Of a stretch of DNA of 64,000 nt, positions 23,914 to 26,283 are shown piece after piece. A model generated the notes under the pieces. The model was given only the letters and a program-made list of their open reading frames with translations, was not told where the DNA came from and made no database searches. The position numbers and the translations under genes are program-made. Position 1 is the stretch's first letter. Every line of letters starts with the position of its first letter. The DNA is from Amycolatopsis sacchari (GTDB lineage: Bacteria > Actinomycetota > Actinomycetes > Mycobacteriales > Pseudonocardiaceae): contig NZ_FORP01000012.1 in assembly GCF_900114035.1 (NCBI RefSeq), positions 1 through 64,000 on the forward strand, in the 5' to 3' direction.

Positions 23914-24996
23914 TCACCGGCGCGCGACGGCCCCGGCCAGCTCGTCCAGCAGCTCCGCCGTCGTCGGCCAATCGAGGCACGCGTCCGTGATCGACTGCCC
24001 GTAGGTCAGCTCGGACGCCTGCCCCAGCACCAGATCCTGGCGGCCCGCCTCGAGGAAGCTCTCCAGCATCACGCCGACGATCCCGCGCTCGCCGTCGCCG
24101 ATCCTGGCCGCCAGCTCGCGGACCACGCCCGCCTGCCGGACGTGGTCCTTCCCGCTGTTGCCGTGCGAGGCGTCGACGATCAGCCGCTCGGGCAGGCCGC
24201 TCGCCCGCAGCCGCGCGAGGGTGTCCCGCACGGTTTCCGCGTCGTAGTTCGGGCCGCCGCTGTGCCCGCGCAGGATGACGTGGCAGTCCGGGTTACCCGC
24301 CGTCGTGACGAGGGCGGCCAGGCCGTCGGCGTTGATCCCGGGGAACACGTGGCTCGCCGCGGCCGCGCGCGTCGCGTCCACGGCGACCTGCACGTCGCCC
24401 TCGGTGGAGTTCTTGATCCCCACCGGCATGGACAGCGCGCTGCACAGCTGCCGGTGCACCTGGCTGGCCGCGGTCCGCGCGCCGATCGAACCCCAGCTGA
24501 CGGTGTCGGCGATGTACTGCGGGGTGATCGGGTCGAGGAACTCGCAGCCCACGGGCAGGCCGAGCGCGGAGATGTCGAGCAGCAGCTTGCGGGCGATCCG
24601 CAGCCCCTGGTTGACGGCGTAGCTGCCGTCCAGCCCGGGGTCGTTGATCAGGCCCTTCCAGCCCAGCGTCGTGCGCGGCTTCTCGAAGTACACGCGCATC
24701 ACGACGTGCAGCTGTTCGCGCAGCGCGTCGGCCTTCTCGGCGAGCCGGATGGCGTAGTCGACGGCCGCTTCCGGGTCGTGCACCGAGCACGGGCCCACGA
24801 CGACGAGCAGCCGGTCGTCGTCACCGTTGAGGATGTCGACGGTCGCGGCGCGCCCCTGCGCGACGGTCTTGGCGACGGCCGCGTCCATCGGGTGCTCCTG
24901 GCGGAGCAGGGCGGGGGAGAGCAGCGGGCTCATGCTCACGGTGCGCTGGTCGTCGAGCGCGACCGGGGTTTCCGCGGGGCCTGCGGCGATCTGCAT
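23914..24996 (-). CDS. aroF: DAHP synthase, class I
   Basis: A 360-residue 3-deoxy-7-phosphoheptulonate synthase of the AroF/G/H type, the first step of aromatic amino acid synthesis (phosphoenolpyruvate plus erythrose-4-phosphate). Motifs are VVVGPCSVHDPEAAVDYA, RVYFEKPRTTLGWKGLINDP, LRGHSGGPNYDAE and IVDASHGNSGKDH. ATG 24996 starts the conserved protein; AAAGGA lies 12-17 bases upstream. An aromatic-rich leader ORF (25079-25147) and alternative hairpins precede it, predicting attenuation by aromatic aminoacyl-tRNA supply. Parts of its 3' coding sequence are duplicated in the intergenic region beyond its stop. Confidence 0.94.
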   Translation of the reverse strand: MQIAAGPAETPVALDDQRTVSMSPLLSPALLRQEHPMDAAVAKTVAQGRAATVDILNGDDDRLLVVVGPCSVHDPEAAVDYAIRLAEKADALREQLHVVMRVYFEKPRTTLGWKGLINDPGLDGSYAVNQGLRIARKLLLDISALGLPVGCEFLDPITPQYIADTVSWGSIGARTAASQVHRQLCSALSMPVGIKNSTEGDVQVAVDATRAAAASHVFPGINADGLAALVTTAGNPDCHVILRGHSGGPNYDAETVRDTLARLRASGLPERLIVDASHGNSGKDHVRQAGVVRELAARIGDGERGIVGVMLESFLEAGRQDLVLGQASELTYGQSITDACLDWPTTAELLDELAGAVARR

Positions 24997-25036
24997 GGCG
25001 GTTTCGGTCCTTTCGCGACCGGCCCGCCGTGTGCTG

Positions 25037-25069
25037 CCACCGAGCCGGTCTTCGTTCTCCGGCTCGTGG
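25037..25069 (-). promoter_or_regulatory. Attenuator hairpin before DAHP synthase
   Basis: On the minus strand CCACGAGCCGG (25069-25059), a 10-base loop and CCGGCTCGGTGG (25048-25037) form an 11-bp stem with one bulged G between the leader ORF and aroF. A competing pairing is available: TGGGTGG inside the leader ORF (25114-25108) is complementary to CCACCCA (25072-25066), which includes the start of this stem. The two structures are mutually exclusive, as in leader-peptide attenuation. No U-run follows, so the stem may also act on translation or on Rho. Confidence 0.7.
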
Positions 25070-25078
25070 GTGGCTGGT

Positions 25079-25147
25079 TCAGCGCGCGGCGATCTCGCCG
25101 GCTGGCCCACCCAGGGCCGGCCCGCTAAACCAGAAATACCGCTGCAC
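25079..25147 (-). CDS. Aromatic leader peptide (22 aa) of DAHP synthase
   Basis: GTG 25147 opens a 22-codon ORF whose fourth to seventh residues are Tyr-Phe-Trp-Phe (VQRYFWFS...), ending with a TGA at 25079, 82 bp before aroF. Four consecutive aromatic codons are very unlikely by chance, and aromatic leader peptides before DAHP synthase genes are known in actinobacteria (for example upstream of aroF in corynebacteria). A TAGGGT box at 25160-25155 puts the transcript start at or next to the GTG, so the leader peptide itself is probably translated from a leaderless mRNA. Stalling at the aromatic codons would favour the antiterminator pairing. Confidence 0.8.
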   Translation of the reverse strand: MQRYFWFSGPALGGPAGEIAAR

Positions 25148-25163
25148 GGACACGACCCTACCA

Positions 25164-25208
25164 AAGCGGTGCACCGCTTGACCGATCAAGGCCGGGCTTG
25201 GCTACGCT
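25164..25208. promoter_or_regulatory. Divergent aroF/PFK promoter region with palindrome
   Basis: Contains a perfect 16-bp palindrome AAGCGGTGCACCGCTT (25164-25179), overlapping TTGACC (25178-25183) and a second near-palindrome TTGACCGATCAA (25178-25189). TTGACC with TACGCT (25203-25208, 19-bp spacer) could drive the phosphofructokinase gene; the TAGGGT box for the aroF leader lies just outside at 25160-25155. A regulator binding the palindrome would affect both genes. The regulator is unknown. Confidence 0.5.
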
Positions 25209-25257
25209 GGCGCCCACAAGTGTGATCCAGGACAAACTTTCGAAAGGGCTGGTTCCC

Positions 25258-26283
25258 ATGCGAGTGGGGGTGCTGACCGGTGGCGGCGACTGCCCCGGCC
25301 TGAACGCGGTGATCCGGGCGGTCGTCCGCAAGGGGATCGAGGCCAACGGCTGGGAGGTCGTCGGTTTCCGCAGCGGCTGGCGCGGCCCGATGACCGGCGA
25401 CTCCAGGCCGCTGGGCCTCGACGACGTCGAGGAGATCCTCACCCGCGGCGGCACGATCCTCGGCTCCTCGCGCACCAACCCGTACAAGGAGGAGGGCGGG
25501 GTCGACAAGATCAAGGCCACGCTCGCCGACCAGGGGATCGACGCGCTCATCGCGATCGGCGGCGAGGACACCCTGGGTGTCGCGAAGAAGCTGACCGACG
25601 ACGGCGTGGGCGTCGTGGGCGTGCCCAAGACGATCGACAACGACCTCGCGGCCACCGACTACACCTTCGGCTTCGACACCGCGGTGCACATCGCGACCGA
25701 GGCCATCGACCGCCTGCGCACGACGGCGGAGTCGCACTACCGCGCCATCGTCGTCGAGGTCATGGGCAGGCACGCGGGCTGGATCGCGCTGCACTCCGGG
25801 CTCGCCGGCGGCGCGAACGTGATCCTGGTGCCGGAGCGGCCGTTCTCGGTCGACCAGGTCGTCGAGTGGGTCGAGCGCCGGTTCGAGCGCATGTACGCCC
25901 CGATCATCGTGGTCGCCGAGGGCGCGCTGCCCGAGGGCGGCGAGGAGATCCTGACCAGCGGCGAGAAGGACGCGTTCGGGCACGTCCGGCTCGGCGGCGT
26001 CGGGACCTGGCTCGCCGACGAGATCGCCAAGCGCACCGGCAAGGAGTCCCGCGCGGTCGTGCTCGGCCACGTCCAGCGCGGTGGCACGCCGACCGCGTAC
26101 GACCGCGTGCTGGCGACGCGGTTCGGGCTGCACGCGGTGGACGCGGTGCAGGACGGCGACTTCGGTGTGATGGTCGCGTTGCGCGGCACCGACATCGTGC
26201 GCGTGAAGCTGGCCGAGGCGACGGCCGAGCTGAAGACCGTGCCGCAGGAGCGCTACGAAGAGGCCGAGGTCTTCTTCGGCTGA
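25258..26283 (+). CDS. pfp: 6-Phosphofructokinase, pyrophosphate type predicted
   Basis: A 341-residue phosphofructokinase (GVLTGGGDCPGLNAVIRAVV, PKTIDND, MGRHAGWIALHSG, LGHVQRGGTPTAYDR). Residue numbering coincides with the E. coli enzyme at the two positions known to decide the phosphoryl donor: Asp104 (GGEDT) and Lys124 (VPKTIDND). Gly at both positions is typical of ATP enzymes; Asp104 with Lys124 marks pyrophosphate-dependent ones, as described for Amycolatopsis methanolica. The reaction would be reversible fructose-6-phosphate phosphorylation. ATG 25258 has an AAAGGG site. The 3' end overlaps the truncated haemoglobin frame by 31 bp. Confidence 0.88.
   Translation: MRVGVLTGGGDCPGLNAVIRAVVRKGIEANGWEVVGFRSGWRGPMTGDSRPLGLDDVEEILTRGGTILGSSRTNPYKEEGGVDKIKATLADQGIDALIAIGGEDTLGVAKKLTDDGVGVVGVPKTIDNDLAATDYTFGFDTAVHIATEAIDRLRTTAESHYRAIVVEVMGRHAGWIALHSGLAGGANVILVPERPFSVDQVVEWVERRFERMYAPIIVVAEGALPEGGEEILTSGEKDAFGHVRLGGVGTWLADEIAKRTGKESRAVVLGHVQRGGTPTAYDRVLATRFGLHAVDAVQDGDFGVMVALRGTDIVRVKLAEATAELKTVPQERYEEAEVFFG

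Follow-up and report, generated by a model that had tools for sequence, protein, structure and literature searches.

A candidate leaderless Tyr-Phe-Trp leader peptide upstream of actinobacterial class I DAHP synthase, with the ribosome site as its probable output in one lineage

The synthesis of aromatic amino acids begins with DAHP synthase. The aroR leader and the aroF attenuator of Corynebacterium glutamicum were reportedly described by Neshat et al. in 2014. As presented in the literature, aroR is an aromatic leader with the core Phe-Tyr-Phe that precedes aroF; this organism has two DAHP synthase genes, of which aroF is one (PMC11802643; PMC4046766). A review describes its response as one to phenylalanine and not to tyrosine (PMC11802643). 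This pair is the closest known counterpart of the locus described here from Amycolatopsis sacchari, which lies in a stretch of 64,000 nucleotides (positions 1 to 64,000 of contig NZ_FORP01000012.1; hereafter the window), and both share a short aromatic leader upstream of a DAHP synthase gene. However, aroR-aroF is described as having a transcriptional output and a Phe-Tyr-Phe core, whereas the leader in the window includes Trp and is followed by a predicted ribosome-site hairpin instead of a U-tailed terminator.

T-boxes bind tRNA by means of the RNA itself and have no leader peptide. Some actinobacterial T-boxes are described as masking a ribosome site rather than building a terminator, and those before ileS act, as is predicted for the window, through a hairpin that covers the ribosome site (PMC1262725). 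Leaders of the ermC type and that of toiL-topAI are likewise similar in that stalling of a ribosome rearranges the leader and exposes the ribosome site of the gene that follows, but they are described as sensing antibiotics, whereas the signal predicted for the window is uncharged aromatic tRNA (PMC12121999). The actinobacterial trp, leu and ilv attenuators resemble the present locus in their alternative hairpins and in their leader peptides, which are often leaderless and contain runs of such codons, but each is presented as answering a single end product (or the branched-chain set), and several have U-tailed terminators (PMC1262725, PMC8079986). A 2005 actinobacterial survey, whose genomes included those of Nocardia farcinica and mycobacteria, reports no conserved structures before phenylalanine or tyrosine operons (PMC1262725), and none of the eight, mostly leaderless, leader peptides reported in Streptomyces lividans belongs to DAHP synthase (PMC8079986). 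A terminator survey (PMC2965389) contained none of the aro terms looked for. In titles and abstract openings of the open literature, a scope with most subscription journals outside it, we found neither a Tyr-Phe-Trp leader nor control of DAHP synthase through its ribosome site described.

The leader and its conservation

The gene that would be regulated occupies positions 23914..24996 (ATG at 24996) and encodes a class I DAHP synthase of the aroFGH family, with the coding sequence 24996-23914 matching the TIGR00034 profile at E 1.4e-144; the same profile matches in C. glutamicum, which served as a control of the search. All features considered here, namely the leader, the -10 box, the stem and the DAHP synthase gene, lie on the minus strand. 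No second class I copy turned up in the genome. A single class II DAHP synthase is encoded elsewhere in the same genome, and no aromatic leader was seen upstream of it; this class II gene (L172) may itself be leaderless, with a TATCCT 7 nt before the GTG that opens its frame, a site located about 100 nt before the matched start. On its other side the leader is flanked by a divergent phosphofructokinase gene, a possible promoter of which was recognized by eye on the plus strand of the window at 25178-25208 (TTGACC, 19 nt, TACGCT). This stretch lies just upstream of the -10 box of the leader and is conserved in most loci of the same genus. Across the 64 kb, on both strands, no curated Rfam family reached its gathering score.

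A sequence-only reading of this DNA had proposed a 22-codon GTG-initiated ORF with four consecutive aromatic codons upstream of the class I DAHP synthase gene, and we find this ORF, MQRYFWFSGPALGGPAGEIAAR, at 25079..25147, with its GTG at 25147 and a TGA stop separated by 82 bases from the ATG of DAHP synthase. Its putative sensor codons, recognized by their position and by the conserved set of Tyr, Phe and Trp, are TAT TTC TGG TTT (Tyr-Phe-Trp-Phe) at 25127..25138. A -10 box, TAGGGT, is located at 25155..25160, 7 nt before the GTG, and conforms to the conserved TANNNT pattern, by which the transcript is predicted to start at or beside 25147; a consensus promoter scan at the leader found none. 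Of the three occurrences of TAYTTYTGGTTY in the 7.6-Mb genome, only the present one is closely preceded by a -10 box and a start codon and followed by DAHP synthase. As in aroR-aroF, a leader ORF with aromatic codons immediately precedes a class I DAHP synthase gene, and a short ORF with a cluster of end-product codons before a gene of the pathway is the arrangement expected of a leader-peptide attenuator.

We compared 120 actinobacterial loci with the main copy of class I DAHP synthase, made up of the best search matches and of 34 regions hand-chosen for spread from a search with matches in 249 of 397 genomes, only part of which were taken. An aromatic leader ORF was found in 110 of them (those of L064, L157, L163 and L165 set by hand after reading the frames; L033 and L053, from contigs of equal length, are probably one and the same locus), and these leaders comprise 84 distinct peptides. 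Its carriers include Amycolatopsis, Pseudonocardia, Rhodococcus, Nocardia, Mycobacterium, Gordonia, Williamsia, Micromonospora, Streptomyces and Kribbella. A class-wide search gave matches in 58 of 296 genomes, with upstream regions counted only where already among the loci. Within the family, a 27-base leader pattern allowing at most 2 mismatches occurs in 38 of 150 genomes, once in each, as against none for the pattern read backwards; 30 of these 38 matches were taken as loci, and in all 30 a class I DAHP synthase gene adjoins.

Comparison with relatives, which the sequence-only reading had named as a check on the aromatic codons, bears them out: Tyr, Phe and Trp codons are all kept within six codons in 105 of the 110 leaders, the exceptions being three without Trp, one without Tyr and one without Phe, while their order varies (YFWF in 51, YWRF in 13, YRWF in 7, YWF in 6, and also WYRF, YYWF and others). 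The leaderless start that it had proposed fares similarly, as the -10 box and its spacing are kept along with the leader. A TANNNT lies 6-8 nt before the ATG or GTG in 110/110 aromatic leaders (7 nt in 86), a figure favoured by our start-picking script, which preferred start codons with a -10 box, and to be set against a rate of 1.5% in shuffled upstream sequence. In L020, where the leader is longer at its start, the -10 box shifts along with the start codon, and in L150 the leader NWRFYFEW likewise has a -10 box 7 nt upstream. Despite the preference of the script for boxed starts, this spacing is good comparative evidence that supports leaderless translation, and the conservation of the leader suggests that it is translated.

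No leader was seen in any of six divergent second copies, which were our own choice among further second copies present in the matches. Ten of the 120 main copies likewise have no clear leader (L028, L029, L030, L045, L062, L077, L084, L097, L131 and L132), with L029 having a doubtful aromatic ORF that was scored as none. In L045 and L132, which belong to one genus, parts of regions 3-5 (described below) and the Shine-Dalgarno (SD) sequence are kept with no recognizable aromatic leader ORF. A recent loss of the sensor is possible in these two loci.

Alternative helices and the ribosome site

The RNA from the leader to the DAHP synthase start can be described in terms of successive regions. Region 2, CCGGCCCTGGGTGG, lies within the leader right after the aromatic codons (25107..25120, transcript 28-41) and pairs with region 3, CCACCCACGAGCCGG (25059..25073, transcript 75-89), which can alternatively pair with region 4, GACCGGCTCGGTGGC (25036..25050, transcript 98-112). 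Region 4 is in turn a partner of region 5, CGGGCCGGTC (25017..25026, transcript 122-131), and region 5 forms the left arm of a ribosome-site hairpin by pairing with the SD-holding stretch that ends at the ATG. The pairing from within the leader that the sequence-only reading had set in competition with the stem at 25037-25069 is real: in helix 2:3, CCGGC and TGGGTGG of the leader pair with CCACCCA and GCCGG downstream. Helix 3:4, the presumed terminator of that reading, joins CGAGCCGG (25066-25059) to CCGGCTCG (25048-25041), with a possible extension by GCCACC/GGTGGC. The helices 2:3 and 3:4 are mutually exclusive, with one arm, region 2, inside the leader ORF. Helix 4:5 has 10 bp in the window. 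The hairpin (24997..25028) consists of a lower stem, GGCGG/CCGCC, and an upper stem, CGGTC/GACCG, ends next to the ATG, and contains the SD sequence of DAHP synthase, AAAGGA, at 25013-25008. This predicted hairpin over the SD sequence and start codon, alternative to an upstream helix, is the layout of a translational attenuator.

By the presence of a short 3:4 hairpin like that of the window, 64 of the 110 leader loci were placed in one group, 43 of which (less than 0.93 alike) were used to examine the structure; as these sequences are related, every p-value given here is optimistic. The region-5 anchor was set by hand in 13 of the 43, and the SD sequence and start codon were picked by rule. 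In an alignment-free comparison of duplex energies, the whole of 2:3, of 4:5 and of the ribosome-site hairpin (5:6) each paired more favourably within a species than across species, with 0 of 10000 permutations as good in each case. The variable part of 2:3 alone was not significant (719/10000), and 3:4, the core of which is nearly invariant and so insensitive to this test, gave 1630/10000. A further candidate pairing, of the aromatic codons with the region of the stop codon (11 bp in the window), was rejected, being no better within than across species (5594/10000).

On a fixed alignment no covariation was detected for 2:3, with 471 of 500 shuffles as high in score and 478 of 500 in paired cells. 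For 4:5, 20 cells are changed on both sides, compared with 8.3 in shuffles (0/500 as high), and the covariation score is 0.182, compared with at most 0.049 in slid controls. Two flank pairs of 4:5 change on both sides (GC in 25 and AU in 10; AU in 21 and GC in 10), a number of pairs not above that in shuffles, and the same ten sequences change both, so that few independent events may be involved. The ribosome-site hairpin gave a mixed result, with 1/500 shuffles as high in covariation score and 94/500 in cells changed on both sides.

Structure around the ribosome site is in excess in the group of the window. Opening the stretch from SD to start costs 12.6 kcal/mol there, compared with 8.4 kcal/mol when the upstream sequence is shuffled (p 4.6e-9; 43 sequences). 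In the other leader loci the values are 9.0 and 8.6 kcal/mol (p 0.56), in a comparison with differently cut segments that begin 50 nt before the SD in these loci and after region 4 in the group, and that covers 41 of the 46 loci (L063, L153, L157, L159 and L163 yielded no SD and start by rule), among which are a few of the window's type missed by the grouping pattern, such as L142, L143 and L146. Excess structure at the ribosome site was also observed outside the group of the window, in L149, L155, L156, L065 and L092, which have mycobacterial-type leaders or belong to Dietzia; perhaps both kinds of output occur together in these.

The accessibility of the SD core, our initial measure of switching, went in the wrong direction and was rejected: the core is unpaired at 0.58 with region 4 free and at 0.68 with region 4 taken, and with region 4 free its unpaired share is higher by more than 0.1 in 3 of the 43 sequences and lower in 15. 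By the cost of opening SD to start, a measure chosen second, the mean over the 43 sequences is 7.0 kcal/mol with region 4 free compared with 12.6 with region 4 taken, and in the window 5.9 compared with 16.0 kcal/mol. The real drop of 5.6 compares with a mean of 1.5 when the stretch made up of the loop and region 4 is shuffled, and for 24 of the 43 sequences no more than 5% of the shuffles of that sequence give as large a drop. In the free state of the window, 4:5 costs 2.3 kcal/mol against the ensemble.

Proposed switch and competing explanations

These comparisons point to a leader-peptide attenuator of class I DAHP synthase in which the output, in this lineage, is probably access to the ribosome site. 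Transcription would start at the GTG of the leader, and a ribosome would begin there in the manner of leaderless translation, with no Shine-Dalgarno site. If Tyr-, Phe- or Trp-tRNA were uncharged, the ribosome would pause at the YFW codons and 2:3 would pair before region 4 exists; region 4, left free, would then pair with region 5, the hairpin that covers the SD sequence and the start codon would open, and DAHP synthase would be translated. With charged aromatic tRNAs the ribosome would reach the stop codon and cover the beginning of region 3; 3:4 would then pair, region 5 would close the ribosome-site hairpin and translation would drop. The leader would in this way probably let the cell switch DAHP synthase on when tyrosine, phenylalanine and tryptophan are scarce. 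Comparison supports the leader, the -10 spacing, the set of three aromatics, the covariation of 4:5, the alignment-free signals of 2:3 and 5:6, and the structure at the ribosome site; stalling, co-transcriptional timing, the direction of switching and how each single amino acid is answered are inferred.

Models of the ribosome at different positions agree with this scheme in part. When the transcript is cut just after region 3 and a ribosome is placed on the first aromatic codon, the mean pairing of region 3 is 0.85. For the window, such a truncated transcript pairs region 3 through 2:3 at 0.85, 0.85 and 0.71 with the ribosome at Tyr, the first Phe and Trp, respectively. Helix 2:3 is largely blocked once the ribosome stands at the last Phe (mean pairing of region 3 0.32; window 0.38), so that a sensing role suits the first three aromatic codons but hardly the last Phe. 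A ribosome at the stop codon of the truncated transcript still leaves region 3 paired, with other partners (mean 0.77; window 0.98). Compared with a ribosome at the stop codon, one at the first aromatic codon makes the ribosome site easier to open in 37 of the 43 loci and harder in 4. For the full leader of the window, an equilibrium model of ribosome positions failed to produce a switch, with 3:4 winning in every ribosome state (P 1.00); the switch would consequently require 2:3 to form first during transcription and to persist. A finding counter to the ribosome-site explanation is that L045 and L132 retain their parts of regions 3-5 without the aromatic ORF.

The sequence-only reading had the locus as a classical transcription attenuator, with 3:4 (25037-25069) as terminator and 2:3 as antiterminator. 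Its sensor half is well supported by the comparison of leaders, and the stem that it called terminator-like does exist, but transcription termination at this stem is not supported: no T-tract follows 3:4, and a consensus terminator scan of 24950-25300 found no hairpin leading into a U-tract. Defined as a perfect stem of at least 7 pairs whose end shows 4 or more T among 8 bases, a U-tailed stem is found in 3 of the 64 loci of the group (absent in 61/64) versus 30 of the 46 others, compared with 1.7% in shuffles of 40 others, which suggests that the group of the window lost, or never had, the terminator. The mutual exclusion of 2:3 and 3:4 is what such an attenuator calls for, the reported action of aroR in C. 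glutamicum is transcriptional (PMC11802643), and U-tailed terminators do occur in those 30 of 46 relatives with the same leader, for example in Micromonospora, Mycobacterium and Kribbella, and in L188-L192, a genus of the window's own family. However, in the terminator-bearing relatives that we read, L188-L192 also having a separate hairpin, the U-tailed hairpin sits between regions 3 and 4 and is distinct from 3:4, and a terminator in the window would leave unexplained the co-varying 4:5 and the structured ribosome site of its group. We accordingly consider termination at 3:4 unlikely, and hold with moderate confidence that the output is to be revised from terminator to ribosome site.

A combined action has a somewhat better, if still minor, chance of being correct: the ribosome site would be closed and the untranslated message then cut short by Rho, an effect described for the toiL-topAI leader of Escherichia coli (PMC12121999). 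It overlaps with the ribosome-site explanation, and the same RNA evidence applies to it. A far less probable alternative is that the aromatic residues act not through codon sensing but as a nascent-peptide arrest sequence, or as a fixed peptide motif of a translated ORF. The residues after the aromatics, SGPALGG, are indeed strongly conserved in the genus of the window, but this conservation coincides with RNA region 2, and among the aromatics the order changes while the set is kept.

One sensor with two candidate outputs

Taking the two groups of loci together, we lean slightly towards a single leaderless sensor of Tyr, Phe and Trp that is common to actinobacterial class I DAHP synthases and works through two interchangeable outputs, a U-tailed terminator in some lineages and, in others such as that of the window, a ribosome-site hairpin reached by the chain 2:3, 3:4, 4:5 and 5:6. 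Exchange of expression platforms is known for riboswitches. It is described for T-boxes too (PMC1262725), and the two-output reading, if true, would be a case of it in a leader-peptide attenuator. It would also mean a shared control of class I DAHP synthase, in which one short peptide serves all three end products. The same sensor with two outputs would offer a route to asking how attenuators come to switch between transcriptional and translational control, and the family also lets one ask whether such a peptide responds to any of the three amino acids or to only some. The leader would be a clear target in strain engineering for releasing DAHP synthase.

In four of the terminator-bearing loci (L149, L066, L083 and L154), helix 2:3 stops just before the U-tailed hairpin, with no overlap between the two, so that the usual antiterminator logic is inapplicable to them as it stands. 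Class I DAHP synthase genes of proteobacteria were also seen to be preceded by ORFs with dense aromatic runs, in L098, L104, L107 and L114 (Xanthomonas and relatives), L109 (Bordetella), L093, L094, L115 and L128; examples of these runs are FYFWYYGFPMPLAEEG in Xanthomonas, FYFYFYGFLKPLAEEG in Bordetella and AFWYFFYP in Leisingera.
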